Positions 1 through 27,116 of a stretch of DNA of 28,838 bases are shown here, piece after piece. Every line of letters begins with the position of its first letter. Positions within the stretch are counted from its first letter, which is position 1. The DNA is from a virus. The DNA is taken from positions 1 through 28,838 of IMG/VR virus record IMGVR_UViG_3300012202_000009. One strand, 5' to 3'. The notes under the pieces are model-generated. The model searched no databases. It was not told where the DNA came from and saw nothing but the letters and a program-made list of their open reading frames with translations. The position numbers and the translations under genes are program-made.

Positions 1-211
1 CCGCGGCTTTGTCCAGATCATCGGACAGCGACGCCTGCTGAGCGGACGACAGGGCTTTCGGATCAGCCAGGACAATCAGCGGCTCGATCGTCCTGAGCAT
101 CGTCACCGCACCCTGGAGATCCGCGATGACCTGGGCAGGCGTGACCGAGGTATTGGCGCAGCCCGAGAGGAACGCGAGCGCGAGTGCGCCAGCGGCGGTC
201 AATCGTTTCAT
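1..211 (-). CDS. Small lipoprotein, 3' end cut by window edge
   Basis: The reading frame begins with ATG at 211 and runs off the left edge, giving 70 visible residues. The N-terminus is a classical lipoprotein signal: Lys-Arg, a hydrophobic stretch, and the lipobox LSGC with Cys18 as the predicted lipidated residue. The remainder is helical and Ala/Leu-rich, without a recognised domain. A strong Shine-Dalgarno AAGGAG lies 5 bases before the ATG, which fixes the start. Small lipoproteins of this kind occur near lysis genes in phages. An outer-membrane lysis role (o-spanin-like) or a superinfection role are both possible, but neither is shown by sequence. It is the last gene seen in the minus-strand block. 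Confidence 0.8.
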   Translation of the reverse strand, partial: MKRLTAAGALALAFLSGCANTSVTPAQVIADLQGAVTMLRTIEPLIVLADPKALSSAQQASLSDDLDKAA

Positions 212-741: not shown

Positions 742-1683
742 TCACAGGGTGTTGATGTCCTCGTTACGGCTTCGCAGGTACAGATCGAAGTCGTGGCGCA
801 GCTCCGGCTTATTGCCCGCGAACTCCAGAACCCCATGGCTGTTGCGCTTCAGGTCCTCCAGCGGATCGAACCCATGGCGGAGAAACAGGCCCCAGCGTGA
901 CTGGTATCCGCGGTCACCCTTACGGCCGTGGAACAGGTGCTCGATCGTGCCGTCGACGTAGCCGATGTTCCGGTTGATATGCGACAGAGCCCGGCGCTCC
1001 CAGCGCCTGACCTCCTCGCGGTATGCCGCGCTTATGCCGCCCGGCATCGATGTGTCTCCTCCCCCGACCAGAGCCAGCGCCATGTGGTGATCGCCCGACC
1101 CCATACCGCCCATTTCAAATAATCCGCCGACCCAATCGAACGCCTGCCGCGTCATCGCCCAGGCATAGCCGGAGTGCGGATAGCGATAGGGTCCGCCATC
1201 ATGCGACCACCAGTTTTTTCCGCGTGGGATGACCGGTTCGCGGTGGAACCACTGGCGGCAAAACGACCGGTGATGGGCAATGATTTCATCGTTCGGGCCA
1301 AGATCCAGGCCATCCGACCAGGGCTGGATCACGTCATAGTGCTGGAGCGCGTGAAGGGTCGCGAGCGGCCAGTCGCGGCGGCGGAACATCACGTCGGCAT
1401 CGATCCAGGCGATGTATTTTGCCTCAGGCGTCCGGTGGATCGCGAGGTTCAGAAGGTTTTCCTTGTTCCAGACCCTGGTCTTCGCCCGGACGGGAATGTG
1501 CCGCACGCCCTCGGCCGCGCACCGGTGATCCTCGTCGCCATAGACGCACTCGATCACGGTGAGAGTCACCCCGGCCTCGAGCATGCCCGCGGCGAACCGG
1601 AGCCAGTTGCGGTGTGGCGCGTCCCAGTGCAGCGGGTTCGAGCGAACGGTGAAGACGTGGAGGTCAGCAGGATTCAGCGGCAT
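742..1683 (-). CDS. Phage-encoded glycosyltransferase (GT-A fold)
   Basis: This protein has 313 residues and probably transfers a sugar from a nucleotide-sugar donor. The N-terminal half has a Rossmann-like alternation (HVFTVRSNPLHW, then LTVIECVYGD). A hydrophobic strand ending in the metal-binding DXD motif follows: IAWIDADVMF, with Asp95 and Asp97. The acceptor-side region has an SGYAWAMTR strand (about 173-181) and a MGSGDHHMALAL segment (about 195-206). A late EHLFHG motif is typical of such enzymes. I chose the ATG at 1683 because an earlier in-frame ATG at 1749 would overlap the CtrA-like gene and has low-complexity residues. The acceptor cannot be read from sequence: virion protein, modified DNA base, or host envelope glycan are all possible. 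It sits 37 bases after the CtrA-like gene, so the two are probably co-transcribed. Confidence 0.85.
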   Translation of the reverse strand: MPLNPADLHVFTVRSNPLHWDAPHRNWLRFAAGMLEAGVTLTVIECVYGDEDHRCAAEGVRHIPVRAKTRVWNKENLLNLAIHRTPEAKYIAWIDADVMFRRRDWPLATLHALQHYDVIQPWSDGLDLGPNDEIIAHHRSFCRQWFHREPVIPRGKNWWSHDGGPYRYPHSGYAWAMTRQAFDWVGGLFEMGGMGSGDHHMALALVGGGDTSMPGGISAAYREEVRRWERRALSHINRNIGYVDGTIEHLFHGRKGDRGYQSRWGLFLRHGFDPLEDLKRNSHGVLEFAGNKPELRHDFDLYLRSRNEDINTL

Positions 1684-1720: not shown

Positions 1721-2410
1721 TTATGCGGCGGGGCTCGGACCTGGATCATGCAGGACGTGCCCGCATCCCCAGATGGTATCGATCAGCCGTGGCACGCCGG
1801 CGGCCTCGAATTTCTTCCTGATGCGGCAGATGATCACGTCGATCGTCTTTTCCCCCGCCTCCTCCATCCCCGCGTAGATGTGGTTCAGGAATGCGCTCTT
1901 GGTCAGCACCATGCCGCGTCTGAGGAACAGCAGCTCGAGCAACGTGTATTCCCGGCGCGACAGGTCCATCTTGCGATCGCCGACGAAAACCGCGTGCTGG
2001 GCAAGGTTCATCAGGACCTGGCCGCATTGCAAAAGCGTCGAAGAATGCCCCTCGCTGCGCCGCACGACGGCCCTGACACGGGCCATCACCTCAGCGGGTT
2101 CCCATGGCGCCAGGATAAAATCGTCAGCCCCGGTGTCCAGCGCGGCGATACGCATCGGCGCTGTCGCGTGCTGGGCAAGGATCACGCAGGGAATACCGAA
2201 ATGCGCCTGACGCGCATGGCGCACCAGCTCGGTCCCGGTCATATCCGGCAGCTCAAAGTCGATGACCGCCGCGTCGTATTCATAGAGATGGAAGAAATCG
2301 AGCGCCGCTTCGCCCGATGGCGCGCGCTCAACAGTCAATCGGTGCTGGCTTATGAGCCTCGCCTCGCTGACGGCGTGGATGGACGTTGTTCCAACCCTCA
2401 GGATCAGCAT
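1721..2410 (-). CDS. CtrA-like response regulator with degenerate receiver
   Basis: This 229-residue protein matches alphaproteobacterial CtrA in length and layout: receiver (about 1-115), linker, and OmpR-type winged-helix DNA-binding domain (about 125-222). CtrA hallmarks seen are LPDMTG after the phospho-acceptor position, GADD, AVVRRSEGH, REYTLLELL, LTKSAFLNH and the wing region TIWGCGHVL. Asp51 is kept at the phosphorylation site. The acidic pair near the N-terminus is replaced (RVGTTS), the conserved Ser/Thr is Ala79, and the conserved Lys of the KPF motif is Ala101 (APW). Phospho-switching is therefore probably lost, and the protein may act constitutively or as a competitor at host CtrA sites. 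The chain ends in Ala-Ala, like host CtrA, where that end is needed for ClpXP turnover. It starts 21 bases after the membrane coiled-coil gene. Family is near certain; the role is inference. Confidence 0.92.
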   Translation of the reverse strand: MLILRVGTTSIHAVSEARLISQHRLTVERAPSGEAALDFFHLYEYDAAVIDFELPDMTGTELVRHARQAHFGIPCVILAQHATAPMRIAALDTGADDFILAPWEPAEVMARVRAVVRRSEGHSSTLLQCGQVLMNLAQHAVFVGDRKMDLSRREYTLLELLFLRRGMVLTKSAFLNHIYAGMEEAGEKTIDVIICRIRKKFEAAGVPRLIDTIWGCGHVLHDPGPSPAA

Positions 2411-2431: not shown

Positions 2432-2842
2432 TCATTTCGCCGATCGGGCCGGAAACGCGGCCATGATCCTGGCCTCTCTCTCAGAACCATCCGCCTTCAT
2501 TTCCTCACGGGTTGGCATGTGACCGAGGCGCTCGACCGCTGAAGCGAGCTGGTCGAGCATCCGCTGATGCTGCTCAAGTCCAGCGCGTTGATTGGTCCGC
2601 AGCTCTGTCCAGATCCGATCCAGGTCCTCGCGGTGCTCACGCGCGCGTGTGGCGCGGTCGGTCCGGTCCGTCTCGGCGCCGGCGAGCAGCTCGCGGCGGA
2701 CATCCTGGGCGGCGTCGATGGCCTCACGTTTTGACTGTCCGATGTGGAGCCATACCGCGCCAAACATGGCATACAGCAGCCCAACGGCGGCGGTCATGAC
2801 CCAGGAGACGAACCATTGGTCATTTGTGTTGGCGGTGCTCAT
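2432..2842 (-). CDS. Membrane-anchored coiled-coil protein, possible lysis component
   Basis: This protein has 136 residues from the ATG at 2842. One hydrophobic segment near the N-terminus (about residues 10-30, FVSWVMTAAVGLLYAMFG) is followed by a long, highly charged helix rich in Arg, Glu, Asp and Gln, consistent with a coiled coil. This is the topology of an i-spanin, or of some small phage membrane proteins labelled holins, and it lies at the end of the virion block where lysis genes often sit. No endolysin gene is adjacent. The start is uncertain: a TTG at 2857 is in frame but has the AGAGG only three bases upstream, while the ATG has only a weak GGGA. The lipoprotein at 1-211 could be a partner, but three genes separate them. 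Confidence 0.75.
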   Translation of the reverse strand: MSTANTNDQWFVSWVMTAAVGLLYAMFGAVWLHIGQSKREAIDAAQDVRRELLAGAETDRTDRATRAREHREDLDRIWTELRTNQRAGLEQHQRMLDQLASAVERLGHMPTREEMKADGSEREARIMAAFPARSAK

Positions 2843-2911: not shown

Positions 2912-4012
2912 TCATGGGAACGAGCGGAAGAACAGCCGGGCGGCGTTTGAGCAAAATGGAGTATATGTGATGACTATAATACCCTGCGCGCCGCTACCCA
3001 TTTGATTTCCTGACGCTACGCTGCCTGTGCCAGCACCACCTCCGTATAAACCGCCATCGCCACCTTTATTTGATATAGAACCGCTTACCGCCCCCTGGCC
3101 TCCGCCCCCGCCAGCGCCGTGCGTACTATCCCAGTCAGTCCCAGGGCCGCCATTTCCTCCATTGCCTGTATTCGCCCCCCCTCCGCTTCCACCTCCGCCG
3201 CCCCCGCCGCCAGACGTTCCGGCCGCACCCGATCCGCCACCTGAAGTCCCACCAGCGCCGCCTCCGGCGCCCAGGCTATTATTTCCACCGGCGCCACCTA
3301 CCGCTCCGGAATTGGCATTTCCTTGGCTGCCCCCTCCGGCACCACCACCACCAGCACCGCCGCTCGTTCCGGAATTAGGGTCAGTATTGCCATTCGCCCC
3401 CGCGCCAGATGGACCGCCCGCCGCCCCCCCAGATCCTCTTTGTTGAGTTCCGGCATTGGATCCTGTTCCCCCGGAATTTTTTATATTGCCCGTGCCCAGG
3501 GCAATTCCTGATGCCGCCGCCCCTCCCACCCCTTCACCGCTCGACCCTACGGTCGCATCGCCCGGACCGCCGCCTTTTGATCCCGCTATGACACCGGAAG
3601 AAGTTATGCTTGTCGCTGTATTATTATTGGATATCCAGGTATCTCCGCCTGTGCCGCCCTTACTGTTCGCGGTGTTATTCGCGGCCCCTCCTGATCCAAC
3701 GCTGATGTTGACGACAGCACCCGCCGTTAAAGTCTGGGCAACCGACTTTGAATAAGCGCCAGCTCCGGACGCCGCTGGATTTCGAACGCCCTGCTGCCCT
3801 CCGCCAGCGCCGCCGCCGCCGCCTATCGTTTCTATAGTACTGCAACTGCTAACCAGATCCGACGGGACTGTGAGAGTTGTCGCTGTAGTATCCGTGCATG
3901 CGATAATTTTTGGCGGTCCAGTGACCAGCGTTGTCAATGTGCAATTGGCCGCTCTCGCCTGAGAGGAAGCCAGTAAGCAGAGAAAAACGAAAAGGACACG
4001 TTTGATTTTCAT
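2912..4012 (-). CDS. Secreted glycine-rich adhesin-like tail protein
   Basis: This protein has 366 residues. The N-terminus is a Sec-type signal peptide ([17 protein letters not shown], likely cut after ARA). A Cys-containing region follows (about 22-60), then some 250 residues dominated by Gly, Ser, Ala, Thr and Asn with many GG and GGG runs. It ends in a beta strand, GIIVITYTP, followed by a short CSNAARLFF tail. Gly-rich phage tail-tip proteins are known that pack as polyglycine-II helices and bind host surface receptors, for example the gp38 adhesin of phage S16. The run ending in IIVITY is typical of such Gly-rich phage domains. It overlaps the preceding fibre gene by TGATG, so the two are probably translated together. 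The signal peptide is unusual for a virion part. Confidence 0.82.
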   Translation of the reverse strand: MKIKRVLFVFLCLLASSQARAANCTLTTLVTGPPKIIACTDTTATTLTVPSDLVSSCSTIETIGGGGGAGGGQQGVRNPAASGAGAYSKSVAQTLTAGAVVNISVGSGGAANNTANSKGGTGGDTWISNNNTATSITSSGVIAGSKGGGPGDATVGSSGEGVGGAAASGIALGTGNIKNSGGTGSNAGTQQRGSGGAAGGPSGAGANGNTDPNSGTSGGAGGGGAGGGSQGNANSGAVGGAGGNNSLGAGGGAGGTSGGGSGAAGTSGGGGGGGGSGGGANTGNGGNGGPGTDWDSTHGAGGGGGQGAVSGSISNKGGDGGLYGGGAGTGSVASGNQMGSGAQGIIVITYTPFCSNAARLFFRSFP

Positions 4013-12002: not shown

Positions 12003-12745
12003 CAAAAATTCCCGTCAATATTGCCATTTATCGCGTTGGAAATTGGACCACTGCCTCCTCCACCGCCTCCACCACTTCCGAGCAGATTGTTGTACAACAG
12101 GTAATTGAGAGGCGTGCCGCCGGCTGAACTCAGCCCACCGGCGACGGCGTTCCCACTTCCAACCGTCCCGGCCGCGCTGGCATTGGCGCCCCCGATCGCA
12201 GAGGCATTGGCGTTCGAGATGTTTGCCGTTCCGAGATCGCCGGTTTTCGCGGCGGCGCTTTCCCCCTGGCTCGCCAGGGACTGGAGCGGATTGAGCAAAT
12301 TCGCCTGAAAGGTGTTCTGGGCGAGTCCGGTGGCGTATCCCGCGGCCCCCTTAAGCGCCGCGCCTGACGTGCCGAGCCCGCGGGCCGCCGCGCTGTTCTG
12401 CACGGACTTCAGCCCCTGCGTGAGGTTGAACTGGTACCCGGGGGTAGCTTCAAGAGCCGATAATTCCGCGCCGGAGTCGAGCGGTGCGGCTGGCGTTATG
12501 GTCCCATCCGCGGCGGTCGTCGGAAGGCCGAAGAACGAGGACAGCTTGTTCGTCGCGGCCTGTCCGGTGGCATTGTATGGCGCCAGATCGGCGCGGGTCT
12601 GCGCGGCTTCATCGATCGATGCCTGGGTCGCCCTGTTCGCCGCGCCCGCCTGCTTACTGGCCGCACTGCTCGCCGCGCTCGATGAGACCGCCGCCCCGGC
12701 CAGACCGGCAGCCGCTGAAACGCCGATCGCCGCTCCGACGCCCAT
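12002..12745 (-). CDS. DNA transfer (ejection) protein, P22 gp7-like region
   Basis: This protein has 247 residues. The N-terminus is Ala/Ser/Gly-rich and hydrophobic (AAIGVSAAAGLAGAAVSSSA), followed by a helix with RADLAPYNATGQAATNKL (about 51-68). The signature is TPGYQFNLTQGLKSVQNSAA then ARGLGTSGAA (about 101-130). This phrase is characteristic of phage proteins annotated as DNA transfer or ejection proteins, placed near gp7 in P22-type phages. The rest is low-complexity Ala/Gly/Asn/Ser with a Gly run near the end. It begins at a TGATG overlap with the sulfotransferase-GNAT gene and starts the chain of five ejection-cluster genes. The protein would leave the capsid with the DNA and act at the cell envelope. 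Confidence 0.82.
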   Translation of the reverse strand: MGVGAAIGVSAAAGLAGAAVSSSAASSAASKQAGAANRATQASIDEAAQTRADLAPYNATGQAATNKLSSFFGLPTTAADGTITPAAPLDSGAELSALEATPGYQFNLTQGLKSVQNSAAARGLGTSGAALKGAAGYATGLAQNTFQANLLNPLQSLASQGESAAAKTGDLGTANISNANASAIGGANASAAGTVGSGNAVAGGLSSAGGTPLNYLLYNNLLGSGGGGGGGSGPISNAINGNIDGNF

Positions 12746-13797
12746 CAGACCGCTCCCGTTTCGAGTTTATAGAGATGGCCGAAATCCTCAGCGCCGAGAC
12801 GTTGGTACAACGGCCCCATCTTCGGCCCCGATCCGCGCGGGCCAGCCCGGAAATACACCTCGTGAATGCCTTTTTCCTTGAGGGCCGCGATTGATGCTCG
12901 TTGCATTTTCATCCCCAGGCCGAAAAACCCCGGCGCCGCGAAAAACAGCGTGTGCACAGCGGTCATGATGTGCGGCGACTCGAGCGATGGGCTCAGGATG
13001 GCCATCAGATAGCCGAACATCCGGCCGTTGCTGCGCGCCGTCATGAACTGGATCGCGTGCCTCCGATCCAGCTCGCGCATGAGCGGAATGTTCTTGCCTT
13101 CCCAGGAGTCCGGCGTCTCGCCGACGGAGATACAATGGTCGCGAAATAAGTGACGGCCGTCGCGATGGACGGTTTCGAAAGACTCCTGTTGGATTGAGAC
13201 GCCTTCAAGGTCTTTCACCGGACGTGCCATTCCGGCGATGCACTGCTGTTTCGCGATCTTCGCGACTTTGTCGAGTTGCGTCTGGTATGCGGCGGAATAC
13301 CGAATGAGTGCCGCCATGCTGACCTGAAGGTTGAGCGACGCGAAGGCGCCCCACCAGTCCGGCTTATGTGCGTAGGGCAGACAATGCTCAAACAGCCGGG
13401 CGCATCCGGCCTCCGTCGCCAGCTCGGCATATGAGATGGAAAGAACACCCGGCACGCGCCGCTCGATCTGGTCGAGTTTTCGATCCAGCTTCACCATGAG
13501 CGGTTCGATCGTGGTATCGAGGCCGAGGCGTACCAGGCTCTCAACCACGTCTCGCACCGGGCGGCGGATGACGATGGTCCGCAGGTCCGGCCTGTATCGC
13601 CGCGCCAGGCGCCACCAGGGCGCACCGGCGGTTTCCACGGTCCCGGTGCATTCCTGTGATAGCCATGACCTCACGTCCTCCAGGCCGCGCGCATGGCGCA
13701 GCTCGTCATGACCACAGTTCCAGTCGCCATATGAGAGAAAGCGCGAAACCCAGAACGTCCGCGATCGGGGCAGCGCGTAGATGATAAACGGGGTCAT
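12745..13797 (-). CDS. Sulfotransferase-like and GNAT acetyltransferase-like fusion
   Basis: This protein has 350 residues from ATG 13797, which overlaps the previous stop as ATGA; a TTG three codons earlier is possible. Residues 1 to about 190 resemble a P-loop sulfotransferase: a 5'-phosphosulfate loop IYALPRSRTFWVSRFL (6-21) and a 3'-phosphate-binding segment VIRRPVRDVVESLVRLG (76-92). Residues about 200-350 resemble GNAT acetyltransferases of phage virion clusters: ARSNGRMFGYLMAIL (254-268), the acetyl-CoA loop region PGFFGLGMKMQRAS (289-302), and a C-terminal RLGAEDFGHLYKLE. A GNAT-type protein is often present among podovirus structural genes; I do not know of a described fusion of this kind. 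Substrates are unknown. It could modify virion proteins, or the surface of the infected host. Domain calls rest on motif reading, not on a search. Confidence 0.75.
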   Translation of the reverse strand: MTPFIIYALPRSRTFWVSRFLSYGDWNCGHDELRHARGLEDVRSWLSQECTGTVETAGAPWWRLARRYRPDLRTIVIRRPVRDVVESLVRLGLDTTIEPLMVKLDRKLDQIERRVPGVLSISYAELATEAGCARLFEHCLPYAHKPDWWGAFASLNLQVSMAALIRYSAAYQTQLDKVAKIAKQQCIAGMARPVKDLEGVSIQQESFETVHRDGRHLFRDHCISVGETPDSWEGKNIPLMRELDRRHAIQFMTARSNGRMFGYLMAILSPSLESPHIMTAVHTLFFAAPGFFGLGMKMQRASIAALKEKGIHEVYFRAGPRGSGPKMGPLYQRLGAEDFGHLYKLETGAV

Positions 13798-14483
13798 GCC
13801 GGCCAAAACGGACTCGCGTAGTTGGTGCCGTTGATATTGACCCGGAGCCAGAAGGCCGGGTTTCCCGCCGTGGGGGCATTGGTCAGGGTTGCCACCTGAG
13901 CCGCCGCGTCGCTCGTTTGGCCCGTCAGATGAAGTAGGCCGTCGCCGTTGACCGTAACGCCCGCCAGGGTGGGGTTGGTGGCTCGCGCCAGATTTCCGGT
14001 GCCCGTGGTCGCGGTATAGGTGACCGTGGCCGGAGCTGTGATGAGCGGCACGGTGCCCGTCGCCGGGCTGGCCGGGTATGCCGTGCCGTTGCCCTTGGCC
14101 ACCGTCGGGTTGGGGTAGGTGCCCGACAGGTCGCCCCCGGCGGCACCGGTCAGGATCGGCGCGGCGAATGTGGCGTCAGCCCGAAGGAAGTTGGTCGTGC
14201 CCCCTCCGGATGGGGGAACCAGGCCCTTGAGGGTGCTGCTGAACGTGTTGATCAGTAGTGTGAGCGCCGCGTTGGTCAGGCCGCCAAAGAAGCCTCCTCC
14301 CGCGTTCACCTGGACGTTTCCGGTGACACCGCCGGGCACGCCGGCCGCGCCCGACTGGCCGCCGGTGCGGGAGAGCAGCGTCTGGAAGAAGAACTGCCAT
14401 GCTGGGTCGGTGATCTTCGTCAGCGGATTGGTCACCGGGATCGATGGTACCGGGACCTGGGCGTTCAGATTGGTGCCGCTCAT
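13794..14483 (-). CDS. Short tail-fibre-like protein
   Basis: This protein has 229 residues. The N-terminus (ITDPAWQFFFQTLLSRTGG, about 24-42) is the kind of segment found at the start of phage fibre proteins that dock on the virion. A fibre-type shaft follows: GGGTTNFLRADATFAAP (93-109), then GDLSGTYPNPTVAKGNG (117-133). From about residue 184 the C-terminal module LHLTGQTSDAAAQVATL, then TNAPTAGNPAFWLRVNINGT, closes the chain. The same module ends the protein at 18960-19622. It starts four bases after the stop of the lectin-like gene and overlaps the next start by ATGA. It is likely a trimeric fibre or a fibre adaptor. Confidence 0.78.
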   Translation of the reverse strand: MSGTNLNAQVPVPSIPVTNPLTKITDPAWQFFFQTLLSRTGGQSGAAGVPGGVTGNVQVNAGGGFFGGLTNAALTLLINTFSSTLKGLVPPSGGGTTNFLRADATFAAPILTGAAGGDLSGTYPNPTVAKGNGTAYPASPATGTVPLITAPATVTYTATTGTGNLARATNPTLAGVTVNGDGLLHLTGQTSDAAAQVATLTNAPTAGNPAFWLRVNINGTNYASPFWPA

Positions 14484-15565: not shown

Positions 15566-17068
15566 TTACGACTTCCACGGTACCACCTCGACGAAAGCGC
15601 CGTTCAACGCGGTTTTGAACGCCGACGACCAGAACAGCTCGAAAACGCGATCGCGGGCGTAGCCAGTGCGGTTCCATTGCGGCTGCGAAAAGCGGCTGGT
15701 GCTGAACTGCTGCGGAACAGGCGGTCCGAATGTCTTGCCGCGCGTGTCGGACCATCTCAGTCCAAGCGACGGGCCGATCGCGGCGAACGAAGGATCGAAC
15801 TGAATCGCGGTGCACGGACTCTCCGTCGCCAGGGAGGTGACGACGACGTTGTCCATGTTGATCGAAATGGTCGACGGCGCGCTCGGTCCGTCCCCATCGC
15901 CCCAGATAATAGCGCCGTCCGGCGTGATGCCTTTCGCGCGGCCCTGAAAGACGTCGCCACTGTCGGCGATCGTGGGAAGCTTGTGGATCGAACCATCGGC
16001 GGTCCAATACACCGGCCATTCGACGTTATCGATATCTTCAGCAAATCCGACGGTTATTGTCGCATCATCGGTGATCCCGGTCGCGACACCCGTCGTTCCA
16101 CCAGCAAGCTGATCAAGCGCGGTGGCGATCGTCCCAACCCAGCGGATCGCGATCTGATTTCCATCAACATCGAAACCTGAACCAACCGCTACCGGTGAGC
16201 CCGACACAAGTGCGCGCGCGCGGTTTGTGATCACAGCACCGCTTCCGCCTGGGAGTTGGGCCATCACATGCACGTCGCCATAGAACAGTCCGGCCGGAAG
16301 CGTTCCTGAATGAGACAGATTATCCCAATAAACCGGCGTGCTTGGTATGCCGTTTGTGCCGAATATAACCGTTCCGTCATCGATTATAAAACCGGCCGTC
16401 CCGTTTGAGCTTATGCTTGGGTTAACCGGCGTCAGACGAAAAACCGCCCCCGCGCCGGTCCAGAAGACAGCAAGGGGAACGACGAACGGGAGCGGTGAGG
16501 AGGCCGTCCCGACAAGCCGTGGAAAACCACTCTGGTCAACGTCGAGAGCCTGTGTTGTCGCGAACGGAACAAAGTCAATGGGCGGAGGGTCAATAAGAAG
16601 TATTGGGAAAAGACTATCCCACAGAGTCGCCTTCTTTGACTCCGGAGTTCCCGTCGAACTCGATCCCGCGATGAAGCGTCCGTCATGGGATATCGCGTTG
16701 GGTGTCGCGTCGGTGTAGCTGGTTCCCGGCGTCAGAAGATGGCCGGTTATTCCCGAGCTGGTCCAGGCGGCGCCGATACTCGCGGCGCCCGACGATCCAA
16801 ATATGACAGAGCCGCCTTTCGCGATACCCGCCGCGATACTCAGGCCGGAAGGAAAAACGTCGTCTAGTGCCGATATGGCTGTGCCAGACGGCCATTGCGC
16901 CGCCTTGGCAAACGATCCGTTGTTGGCCGTTCCGACAACGTCCCCTGTCGCCGAACTCGCCCCGCTGGTGGTTGCGTTATCGCCTGACACCAGTTGATCG
17001 AGTTTCGTCACGGTGGGGTAAGTCAGGCCGCTGGCCAGCCATTTCAGCCCGAAAATACTGGCGGCCAT
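15566..17068 (-). CDS. HAF-repeat-like protein with P22 gp10-type C-terminus
   Basis: This protein has 500 residues from ATG 17068 (TAATG overlap with the gp10-like gene). The N-terminal 390 residues contain repeated units with a Trp-centred strand and a following Gly/Asp turn: AAQWPSG, AAWTSSG, ATLWDSL, AVFWTGAG, PVYWDNL, AIRWVGTI and PVYWTADG. These alternate with phrases such as ISHDGRFIAGSS, IIDDGTVIFG and ITPDGAIIWGDG. This is the pattern of HAF-type extracellular repeats, which fold as beta-propeller-like blades. The last 100 residues (from MDNVVVTSLATESPC) match the end module of the next protein almost exactly. The layout suggests a tail component in which a propeller-like domain is mounted on a gp10-derived base. 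Confidence 0.8.
   Translation of the reverse strand: MAASIFGLKWLASGLTYPTVTKLDQLVSGDNATTSGASSATGDVVGTANNGSFAKAAQWPSGTAISALDDVFPSGLSIAAGIAKGGSVIFGSSGAASIGAAWTSSGITGHLLTPGTSYTDATPNAISHDGRFIAGSSSTGTPESKKATLWDSLFPILLIDPPPIDFVPFATTQALDVDQSGFPRLVGTASSPLPFVVPLAVFWTGAGAVFRLTPVNPSISSNGTAGFIIDDGTVIFGTNGIPSTPVYWDNLSHSGTLPAGLFYGDVHVMAQLPGGSGAVITNRARALVSGSPVAVGSGFDVDGNQIAIRWVGTIATALDQLAGGTTGVATGITDDATITVGFAEDIDNVEWPVYWTADGSIHKLPTIADSGDVFQGRAKGITPDGAIIWGDGDGPSAPSTISINMDNVVVTSLATESPCTAIQFDPSFAAIGPSLGLRWSDTRGKTFGPPVPQQFSTSRFSQPQWNRTGYARDRVFELFWSSAFKTALNGAFVEVVPWKS
15570..15859. repeat. Direct repeat copy B (gp10-type end module)
   Basis: Partner of the repeat at 14492-14778. It encodes the last 95 or so residues of the HAF-repeat-like protein. 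The two flanks are much more alike than the centre. Confidence 0.9.
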
Positions 17069-18948
17069 TACCAAACGCCCCCGATGATCACGTTTCCGGC
17101 GGTGGTAAAGGTCGCATTATCGATCGAAATCGCTTTGGTGAAATCAACGCCCCAGGTCCCGGCGCCGGAAAGCCAAAGCCCGTCCTCGGAACGTTGCACC
17201 GATACCTCGATCGCGGTGCCCTGCATCGAGAGGAACAGCTCAAAAAACCCGGAAGAGATCAGGCCCATACTGACCGTGGTCGTGCCGCCACCCATCACCG
17301 TCAGCTTTGCCTGAAACACGGTGCCATTCGACGTGGCAGAGAGCTTGTATCCGTTGTTCGCCGCGTCGGCGCGGCCGATGAGATAGACCTGCTTCCCTGA
17401 CGCGGCCGCGGCGAGATAGCTGGCGGGGATCGCCTGAAACCGTGCGATGTAGTCGGGGCTGGTGGGCTTTCCTGACGCCAGATACGACGTTGACCCGGTG
17501 CCCGCGCCGGTCAGCACACCACCCTCGACCTCCGCATTGATCGTCGTGTCGATCTGCGTGTACTGCGATCCATCATCGCCCGCGCTGAGCGCCCAGGGCG
17601 ACAGGTAATCCTGTAGAAGCGTGCCGTTTGGCGCGGTGAAGGTCGTGTCGATCACGGTCACGACAGCGGGGAACGTCAATGGGCTGGCCAGACCTGATGG
17701 AAGCCCGGCGCCCCCGCTCCCCGGCGCGGTCGCCGTTCCCGACTGGATGTCGGCGACAAACGACGGATAGGAAGCGCGATTCCCGTCGGCCATCATATGC
17801 GGGTGGCCGCGGCGCCGCTCAACGAAGTCGCCGGCATCGGTCGCATTGTTCGGGTCGAGCATATAGAGCTGACCCGTCAGACGGTCGCCGGCTACGTTCA
17901 CGCCGTAACAAAACGCCGAGGATAAGGCGCGGTGCGATTCACTCTGGCAGGTCGCCGGGTTGAGCCAGGACCGCTCGTGCCATAATTTCGTGGTCTGGTC
18001 GTAGACCCAGTCGGCGCCCAGGCCGCCGTTCGCGCTCGGAAACTTCAGCCAATAGAAGGCATGTCCCAGCTGCTCGTAGCAAAACCCGACGGCATCTGTG
18101 ATCGTGGCGTATGAGCCGATCGCGGCCTCGATAGCCGGTGTCGAGATCTTGTTCGCGGCGAAATTCACACCCTCGACAACGATCGTTGTTCCGTAGGCAT
18201 CCTGCGACAGCCAAAAGACCGAACCGCCCTGCTTGGCGATCGAGTACGGGGCGATGGCGCCATGCTCGACAAAAGGCCCGGGCAGGATCTGAAACGGAAA
18301 ATCAGCGGCGCCCGCATCGAACCATATTTCCGACGTCGACTGACTTCCGACCAGCCATATATTCCGGTTCTGAATGGCGATCCCGGCGAGCTTGTCCGGG
18401 TAGCCGGTCTTGTTGGCGAAGAACAGCGGATCGAAGGTGATCGCGTTGCTGTCCGAGCAGTAGAATGTCTGGCTCGCCGGCTTGTTAAAAACCAGGAACG
18501 TGTCCAGCGTCTCGACGAAGTTCGAGCCGAAGAAGTTCGGATCCGAGATGGCCGCGTAGGCGTGTGTCGCGAGGTCGACCGACCAGCCGAACGCCGATCC
18601 GTCGACGATGACCATCGTCGTCCCGTTATCGCCCATCCTGACCGGGGTGGTATTGACCGCCGTGGTGCCAAGCAGCGTCGACGTCCAGTTCGGGGCGATG
18701 AAGTAGATCCCGCTGCCCACCGCGGCGAACAGCTGGCCATTGGAGGCACGATAGAGTCCGCGGACCGGCGCCGCCTCCGGAGGGACGCCAAGTCGGCTGA
18801 GGCCGGGCGTGAGGTAGTGGGTGGTGGGGCTGTCCTCGCTTTTCGGATTGGCTTCCGGGTAGAGGTTCAGGCAGCGCTGGGCCGCCGCGATCACCGATCG
18901 CGCGGTGTAGGCCCCCTCCAACAGAGGGACGCGGACGGCGCCAGCCAC
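17068..18948 (-). CDS. P22 gp10-like packaged-DNA stabilisation protein with lectin-like C-terminus
   Basis: This protein has 626 residues with a GTG start at 18948; the Shine-Dalgarno TAAGG includes the upstream stop codon. Residues 1 to about 410 follow the gp10 plan: RCLNLYPEANPKSEDSPT near the N-terminus (CLNLYPE is a hallmark), TPGLSRLG, GIAIQNRNIWLVGSQSTSEI, EHGAIAPYSIAKQGGSVFWL, and WVYDQTTKLWHERSW. P22 gp10 (about 472 residues) plugs the neck and joins the tail machine. After FVADIQSGTATAPG the usual gp10 end is absent. Instead a Gly/Pro linker leads to a jelly-roll-like domain (about 426-626), with FQAIPASYLAAA, VYLIGRADAANNGYKLSATS and FELFLSMQGTAIEVSVQRSE. The missing end appears on the two downstream proteins. 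Confidence 0.88.
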   Translation of the reverse strand: MAGAVRVPLLEGAYTARSVIAAAQRCLNLYPEANPKSEDSPTTHYLTPGLSRLGVPPEAAPVRGLYRASNGQLFAAVGSGIYFIAPNWTSTLLGTTAVNTTPVRMGDNGTTMVIVDGSAFGWSVDLATHAYAAISDPNFFGSNFVETLDTFLVFNKPASQTFYCSDSNAITFDPLFFANKTGYPDKLAGIAIQNRNIWLVGSQSTSEIWFDAGAADFPFQILPGPFVEHGAIAPYSIAKQGGSVFWLSQDAYGTTIVVEGVNFAANKISTPAIEAAIGSYATITDAVGFCYEQLGHAFYWLKFPSANGGLGADWVYDQTTKLWHERSWLNPATCQSESHRALSSAFCYGVNVAGDRLTGQLYMLDPNNATDAGDFVERRRGHPHMMADGNRASYPSFVADIQSGTATAPGSGGAGLPSGLASPLTFPAVVTVIDTTFTAPNGTLLQDYLSPWALSAGDDGSQYTQIDTTINAEVEGGVLTGAGTGSTSYLASGKPTSPDYIARFQAIPASYLAAAASGKQVYLIGRADAANNGYKLSATSNGTVFQAKLTVMGGGTTTVSMGLISSGFFELFLSMQGTAIEVSVQRSEDGLWLSGAGTWGVDFTKAISIDNATFTTAGNVIIGGVW

Positions 18949-25904: not shown

Positions 25905-27116
25905 TCAGATCACATCGGCGATGACGACCGCCCATTCCGGCCGGATCCAGAGCGCGCCCCACACGACATCGAGACGTGTCCCGGTTTGCCCGGTGCCGAT
26001 GATGTACTGGCGAACCATCAACATCGACACGCCATCCAGCTCATGACGCGCGCTCTCGACGTTCGGCGGGATCTCGAGATCCGCCGTGGTCATCGTCACC
26101 GCATCCGGAACGAAGGCGATGTTCTTGCGGTAGGTGGTCGACGCCGGGCTCGCGAGGCTGATGGCGGCGCCATTCGCCGGCGAAACGTCAACGGTCTGGT
26201 ACTGTACGTCGGCGCCACCAGGGCCGCCGGGGATCAGCGCCGGGTAGACGCTGATCGAGGTGCCACCGCTCGGAACATCGGCGAGCACGACGAGCTGCCG
26301 CGGCTGGCCATAGGACTGCTTCTCGATACGGTTCACGCCGTTGGATCCGGCGATCGTGATGATGTCGCCCTTCTTGAGCGTGCCGGTGATGGCGTTGGTC
26401 ACGATCGTGGTGCCGCTCTGTCCGGCGCCGTTCACTGTCCCCGCGGAGAATGAGCCGGGGGTGTGCATGATGACGGTCTGATCCATCATCCAGTCGAACC
26501 CGAGCGCGTTCTTCATCGAGCCGGAACGATACTGCTCGCTGATTTCCGTGGCCGGGTTGAACAGCCCGCCCAGCGCCCCGGCGATCCGCGCGTCGGTGAA
26601 CGGATTGACCACCAGCCGGTGATTCATGGCCGGGGCTGATTGCGTATGGAGGATGGCGTTGGCGGTCAGGATCGTGGTGTTGGACGGGCTGATGATGACG
26701 CTCGACGCTTCATTGTCGACGTAGTTGCAAACGCCGCCCTCGGATCCGCTCATGATGCCGACCGCGACCTTACCGGCAAGGTTGTTCACGGCCGGGGCGA
26801 TGTACCGTTCCGTGAAGTCGTCGACCTTCAGGGTGAGGTCGATCTGCGGAAATGACAGGCCCACGTTGTTCTGGGTCGCCATGGTCAGCGTGGTGAACTG
26901 CTCGCTGACGTCCTGGAAGGAAACCGAGGTTCCCGTGCCGACAGTGAAATCGACCGGCAGGCGGATGCGCAGCTGCGACCCGATCTTGGCGCCGGTGCGC
27001 GCAAACTGGTCGTCATATTGCGTGTTGATATTGCGCATGAAGGCGTTGGTGTTTTTCCATAGACGGACCGCCAGACGCGCGATCATGTCAATGGTGAGAA
27101 GCGTATTTCCGGCCAT
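25905..27116 (-). CDS. Major capsid protein, P22 coat family
   Basis: This protein has 403 residues; P22 coat (gp5) has 430. The N-terminus follows the family plan: LTIDMIARLAVRLWKNTNAF then MRNINTQYDDQFARTGAKIG (about 7-46), then RIRLPVDFTVGTG and SVSFQDVSEQFTTLTM, then VGLSFPQIDLTLKVDDFTER (about 85-104). The middle holds RLVVNPFTDARIAGALGGLF and the insertion-like region with strands TLKKGDIITIAGSNGVN and a RQLVVLADVPSGGTS. The C-terminus includes YRKNIAFVPDAVTM and GVSMLMVRQYIIG. This forms an HK97-like fold shell. The ATG at 27116 has GGAG upstream. It is preceded by the longest gap in the window (203 bases) and followed by a large inverted repeat, consistent with separate control of a highly expressed gene. 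Confidence 0.92.
   Translation of the reverse strand: MAGNTLLTIDMIARLAVRLWKNTNAFMRNINTQYDDQFARTGAKIGSQLRIRLPVDFTVGTGTSVSFQDVSEQFTTLTMATQNNVGLSFPQIDLTLKVDDFTERYIAPAVNNLAGKVAVGIMSGSEGGVCNYVDNEASSVIISPSNTTILTANAILHTQSAPAMNHRLVVNPFTDARIAGALGGLFNPATEISEQYRSGSMKNALGFDWMMDQTVIMHTPGSFSAGTVNGAGQSGTTIVTNAITGTLKKGDIITIAGSNGVNRIEKQSYGQPRQLVVLADVPSGGTSISVYPALIPGGPGGADVQYQTVDVSPANGAAISLASPASTTYRKNIAFVPDAVTMTTADLEIPPNVESARHELDGVSMLMVRQYIIGTGQTGTRLDVVWGALWIRPEWAVVIADVI

Follow-up and report, generated by a model that had tools for sequence, protein, structure and literature searches.

The window analysed here, the whole 28,838-base stretch of a viral record, carries a gene whose product resembles CtrA, a cell-cycle and motility regulator of Alphaproteobacteria that is held to be controlled through phosphorylation and proteolysis. 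The locus raises the question of what role such a regulator plays in a phage when several residues of phosphotransfer have been lost from its receiver. We judged the record to be viral because it encoded a P22-like major coat protein (25905..27116, minus strand) and a head-closure protein (17068-18948); it may be a fragment, with half of the phage genome missing. The closest match of the coat protein was a Pseudomonas phage, followed by Acetobacter phage phiAX1. When 50 records with related coat proteins were searched, no match to the ctrA-like gene was obtained, and conservation of the gene across this phage group was thus ruled out.

Receiver and DNA-binding domain of the CtrA-like protein

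The ctrA-like open reading frame (1721..2410) ran on the minus strand from an ATG start at 2410 to 1721 and encoded an OmpR-type protein of 229 aa, which was assigned to a clade of pseudo-receiver CtrA paralogues using Pfam, NCBIfam, a residue check, and a phylogenetic tree. Both Pfam matches, Response_reg (61.9 bits) and Trans_reg_C (61.1 bits), exceeded the cut-off. A first, sequence-only reading of this DNA had ascribed to the protein the length, linker, and winged-helix motifs of CtrA. The comparison agreed with that description, as the domain order, length, linker, and most of the winged helix matched CtrA. The top NCBIfam model was likewise CtrA (NF045991) with 205.7 bits, followed by PhoB with 120.9. 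However, this score lay below the equivalog cut-off of 350 bits, whereas 62 true CtrAs scored 399-433 and the best Colwellia non-CtrA scored 177. CtrA was the best-matching family, yet the window protein does not count as an equivalog of the host regulator.

The pseudo-receiver domain comprised residues 1-117 (2060..2410, minus strand). As a reference, we used 34 class-wide CtrAs, every one of which had the intact set of E-D, D51, S/T79, and K101. The DD pair is taken here to be CtrA positions 7 and 8, by homology to PhoB and CheY. In the window protein, G7 and T8 replaced this pair, A79 and A101 were present, and D51 was kept; the losses in the acidic pocket and at positions 79 and 101 were exactly those described before. 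With these residues, a functional phosphorylation site is very unlikely. The OmpR-type winged-helix DNA-binding domain (residues 124-223; 1742..2041, minus strand) contained T189, I193, R196, and C216 instead of the I, F, K, and R of CtrA, respectively. The protein ended in PSPAA, which bore out the Ala-Ala terminus reported earlier and is a further likeness to CtrA; control by ClpXP is plausible.

The receiver structure was predicted with AlphaFold2, and the mean pLDDT of the model was 90.1. The modelled receiver superposed on the solved CtrA receiver 4qpj_C (TM 0.89, target length; 1.9 Å), and the whole modelled chain fitted PmrA and CosR, the latter an atypical regulator, both in their DNA-bound forms, with a TM of 0.80-0.85. 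The model suggested that the receiver is folded, not unfolded, though the phosphotransfer residues are missing. This combination is the one set out for pseudo-receivers, which are well known as such: the protein matched PF00072 at 61.9 bits, yet DD, T/S, and K were lost, and the receiver fold was kept in the model (PMC12632262). Pseudo-receivers are typically free of control by Asp phosphorylation, and several of them dimerise without it (PMC12632262). ChxR, HP1043/HsrA, and CosR similarly join a receiver fold without a full phosphotransfer site to an OmpR-type DNA-binding domain (PMC12632262). The clade of the window protein differs from these regulators in that it arose separately within CtrA, mostly kept D51, is linked to Tad genes, and is carried by phages.

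A pseudo-receiver branch within CtrA

Patterns built from the window protein alone retrieved no close relative in viral contigs and, in genomes, a Colwellia regulator as the sole match; relatives surfaced only through family-level genome searches and a profile. In the alphaproteobacterial family of genome G609, second ctrA-like genes showed 46-50% identity, compared with 40-46% for ordinary CtrAs, and the profile search yielded more clade members together with one further viral record (L361). The phylogenetic tree, built from 71 sequences, grouped the window protein and 15 others in one clade with a support of 100/100; this clade was nested in the G609 family's own CtrAs (99/97). All CtrA-like sequences, including this clade, were united against other OmpR-type regulators (100/99). 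Descent from CtrA, as assumed from the outset, was thus recovered, and a placement outside the CtrA clade did not occur. The clade was found again in a receiver-only tree (99/95) and in a tree of the DNA-binding domain only (91/70), where the window protein fell within a 10-member set (95/93).

Fourteen of the 16 clade members came from a single alphaproteobacterial family, where each was an additional, second copy on the chromosome, and an intact ctrA was also present in all three genomes checked (G664, G707, and G918). G7, a non-acidic residue 8, and the absence of K101 were common to all 16 members; D51 was kept in 15, and L368 had Arg. The DNA-binding domain was altered as well. R196 was observed in 16/16 members, where every CtrA has Lys, while T/A/S189 stood for the Ile and I/V/L193 for the Phe of CtrA, and C216 replaced the wing Arg of CtrA in 13/16. 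C-terminal ends were read for 13 of the other members, and 12 of these ended in Ala. The mean identity within the clade was 0.60 for the DNA-binding domain and 0.47 for the receiver; the values for class-wide CtrA were 0.83 and 0.72, respectively. Since the residue pattern was fixed in a 16-member clade with 14 chromosomal members, it indicated a stable pseudo-receiver and not decay in one phage. The term "decayed receiver", used in the sequence-only reading, calls for revision in that the change is not one of a single phage. Judged by its sequence, the window gene belongs to a stable branch of pseudo-receiver regulators and was captured by the phage. Additional degenerate CtrA paralogues were seen in the same bacterial family (L344 in G676, L345 in G765, L346 in G673, and L349 in G766); because some degenerate paralogues lay outside the 16-member clade, phosphate control of CtrA seems to have been lost more than once in the G609 family. 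Proxies for the bacterial lineage disagreed, with CpaF nearest to Skermanella/Azospirillum and a permease nearest to Martelella.

The chromosomal members were associated with Tad-pilus genes. In G918, the ctrA-like gene sat amid Tad genes (TadG-like, CpaB/RcpC, secretin, and CpaF). A TadG-like gene adjoined the ctrA-like gene in 7 of the 14 chromosomal tree members and in L407, which was outside the tree; at three ordinary ctrA loci used as controls, no TadG-like neighbour was found. A Tad gene next door was absent for both phage members (the window and L361). In seven of the eight Tad-adjacent loci, one or two TTAA-N7-TTAA sequences with one mismatch were located <100 bp upstream, and the approximately 95 kb of these eight loci held 10 one-mismatch boxes, every one of them in this short stretch before the ctrA-like gene. 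Shuffled 100-bp upstream regions held such a box with a probability of 0.01-0.03 each. L399, L401, and L403 were closely related, which left about five independent cases of upstream boxes. The boxes before the chromosomal relatives are candidate CtrA-type sites, for either CtrA or the paralogue. In the phage window, no exact TTAA-N7-TTAA was detected, as the earlier scan had found, and the single one-mismatch match, at 16411, compared with 1.07 expected by chance. A conventional CtrA box in the window was rejected, as matches were no more frequent than expected by chance, whether the spacer was 7 or 6. We also sought an own promoter for the phage ctrA-like gene, and no candidate signal beat shuffled sequence.

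A palindrome-like motif, GGCCTAGTCC / TAGGCCGTACGGCCTA, recurred approximately 90-130 bp upstream of chromosomal pseudo-receiver genes (L341, L342, L343, L363, L395, L399, L400, L401, L403, and L407). A LuxR-type regulator gene was present near the ctrA-like gene in G918, G943, and G707, and its product might be the reader of this motif. A possible connection of G707, G943, and G918 to Tad through this regulator was noted as well.

CtrA-like proteins on other viral contigs

The other phage member, L361, came from a distinct phage with its own terminase, portal, and recombinase. The only genes common to L361 and the window were the ctrA-like gene (50% identity) and a glycosyltransferase-like gene (71-72% identity). 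In the window, the latter was located directly downstream of the ctrA-like gene (742..1683, minus strand) and encoded a protein with a DxD-type motif (WIDADVMF) and no Pfam match. Relatives of this protein were also observed in 19 viral contigs besides L361 and in Xanthomonas phage XaC1.

An altered phosphotransfer site was found in 15 of the 23 distinct full-length CtrA-like proteins on viral contigs, compared with 4 of 67 chromosomal CtrAs (Fisher p = 2.7e-8, a value that ignores relatedness; the tree requires at least four changes). The first viral set was gathered with two patterns, one of which demands the conserved Lys, so this set was skewed towards intact receivers. A natural D51E change, which corresponds to the laboratory phosphomimetic, occurred in six viral CtrA-like proteins, namely L121 (8001-8666), L124 (7947-8615), L125 (5207-5863), L131 (8001-8669), L146 (7875-8543), and L257 (1340-2014), and D51A occurred in L128. 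Several of the D51E genes directly followed a DNA polymerase gene of the phage, and several viral CtrA-like genes had a phage gene for DNA polymerase, DnaB, or primase as a neighbour. These replication-gene neighbours indicated that the CtrA-like genes of the viral contigs are phage genes; when the other viral CtrA contigs were searched with Pfam for large terminases, one match was obtained, and their phage nature rests on the PHROG replication genes. The proteins of L121, L125, L128, and L131 shared an extension at the C-terminus (SPSLAPEMRDMIDDPP type) that continued past the CtrA end and that host CtrA lacks.

Published phages also encode receiver-less CtrA-like domains. The "CtrA" of Roseobacter RDJL phi 1/2/6 and the proteins of the Rhodobacter RcSalem group and Paracoccus vB_PmaS-R3 resemble the window protein in being phage-encoded CtrA-like DNA-binding domains that would be free of phosphate control. 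In those proteins, the receiver is absent or another N-terminal domain takes its place, whereas the window protein has a folded pseudo-receiver according to Pfam and the model, which separates it from the RDJL type, defined by having no receiver domain. The control of phages by CtrA is already known (PMC9437464). Phage phiCbK with its GcrA, and alphaproteobacterial phages controlled by host CtrA (lytic deferment, PMC9437464), likewise exploit the host CtrA-GcrA network, but they use host CtrA sites or a GcrA homologue, whereas the window phage supplies a CtrA-like protein. A literature search that covered few subscription journals returned no paper on a phage-encoded full-length CtrA or pseudo-receiver CtrA. 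We suggest, tentatively and with a little less than even confidence, that CtrA was captured by alphaproteobacterial phages again and again and was uncoupled from the host phosphorelay by several routes, as a general strategy for seizing the CtrA/pilus regulon. The routes, which we put forward just as tentatively, would be a pseudo-receiver (the window and L361), D51E beside the DNA polymerase gene, and complete loss of the receiver. The wider pattern (15 of 23 viral proteins altered, six with D51E) would make a takeover of the CtrA network by phages testable in Caulobacter.

Possible role in the phage and competing explanations

The reading that we favour, and consider somewhat probable, is that the phage-captured pseudo-receiver CtrA binds DNA without the CckA phosphorelay, at CtrA/Tad-pilus-type promoters of the host, and thereby alters the expression of pilus or surface genes. 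The gene would have been captured from the bacterial branch of second chromosomal ctrA-like genes, which are often Tad-adjacent and have a CtrA-type box in front. The folded receiver would have been kept, probably for dimerisation, and the loss of the Mg2+ pocket, Thr/Ser, and Lys of the phosphotransfer site would permit DNA binding without CckA input, presumably as a constitutive dimer. Expressed from a late or accessory phage region, the protein would target host promoters related to CtrA/Tad sites, and pilus or other surface genes would be altered during infection or lysogeny. In Caulobacter, pilin expression is under CtrA control, and altered CtrA boxes of pilA shift the sensitivity to a pilus-dependent phage (PMC11264516). 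On this basis, the leading guess is that pili would serve superinfection exclusion, so that no further phage adsorbs, or release timing. Phosphate independence, the DNA targets, the timing, activation or repression, and the benefit to the phage are what we infer beyond the sequence, fold model, clade, and linkage. The paired glycosyltransferase-like gene, which is of a surface type, is consistent with a function at the host surface; it fits but does not prove one. A Tad-tied CtrA branch without phosphate control, now present in phages, would represent a natural separation of the phosphorylation and proteolysis controls, and it would allow a direct test of phage effects on pili, a common phage receptor.

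Several results count against the pilus reading. Half of the chromosomal members had no nearby Tad gene, a scan of the window revealed neither Tad genes nor a CtrA box by the phage gene, and none of the 50 phages related by coat protein had a ctrA-like gene. Because no promoter was visible and the gene lies on the late-gene strand, the phage protein may be made too late in infection to redirect the host. The C216 in the wing and the differing recognition-helix residues imply that its targets may not be those of CtrA.

A lock on the host cell cycle, with the protein filling host CtrA sites at the origin and at cell-cycle promoters, was the role first proposed for this gene, and we now regard it as an unlikely rival. 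Membership in the CtrA clade and the retention of much of the recognition helix speak for it, and so do the full-length CtrAs of other alphaproteobacterial phages (with D51E or other receiver changes), whose position next to DNA polymerase genes would suit replication control; phage cell-cycle factors have a precedent in the GcrA of phiCbK (PMC3556154, PMC9437464). Nevertheless, the closest relatives of the window protein are paralogues that coexist with a normal ctrA and whose genomic link is with Tad-pilus genes rather than with the cell cycle; moreover, its DNA-contact residues are altered and its gene lies in the late region. The protein might instead regulate the phage's own promoters, such as those of late genes or lysis, and not the host's. 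Host CtrA does regulate genes of alphaproteobacterial phages (PMC9437464), and the ctrA-like gene stands between putative lysis genes. One of these, 21 bases upstream (2432..2842, minus strand), encodes a small membrane/coiled-coil protein that possibly belongs to a lysis region; the other (2..211, minus strand) extends past the record end and encodes a putative lipoprotein with the lipobox LSGC, a possible spanin-like protein. Both were recognised by sequence reading alone. The chance-level frequency of CtrA-type boxes in the window weighs against phage promoters as targets, in a record from which half of the genome may be missing, and we consider this explanation quite unlikely.

It is also improbable that the gene is a passenger, that is, a host gene acquired by chance, with no role in the phage and with selection relaxed on the receiver, or perhaps on the entire protein. 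The long end branch of the window protein in the 71-sequence tree (0.8) and the absence of the gene from related phages would be expected of a passenger. By contrast, all 229 codons stayed open, the GC and GC3 were similar to those of the remaining phage genes, the signature residues of the clade were retained, the predicted fold was of high confidence, and a second, otherwise unrelated phage had both a clade member and a gene of the same neighbouring family. Inefficient phosphorylation of the receiver at D51 is the possibility to which we give hardly any weight. D51 persisted in 15 of the 16 members, and certain DD, T, or K substitutions leave some phosphorylation (PMC12632262). Even so, every member lacked K101 and an acidic residue at either DD position, and a retained Asp can support dimer formation in some pseudo-receivers (PMC12632262).

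Two further proteins of the window drew our attention. A 353-aa protein encoded among the structural genes (12745-13806) weakly matched phrog_10855 (hydrolase) in its N-terminal part and resembled an acyltransferase-type domain in its C-terminal part. A 366-aa protein (2912-4012), without a PHROG match, was very Gly/Ala-rich and of low complexity, with a signal-like start, and is possibly a tail or surface fibre.
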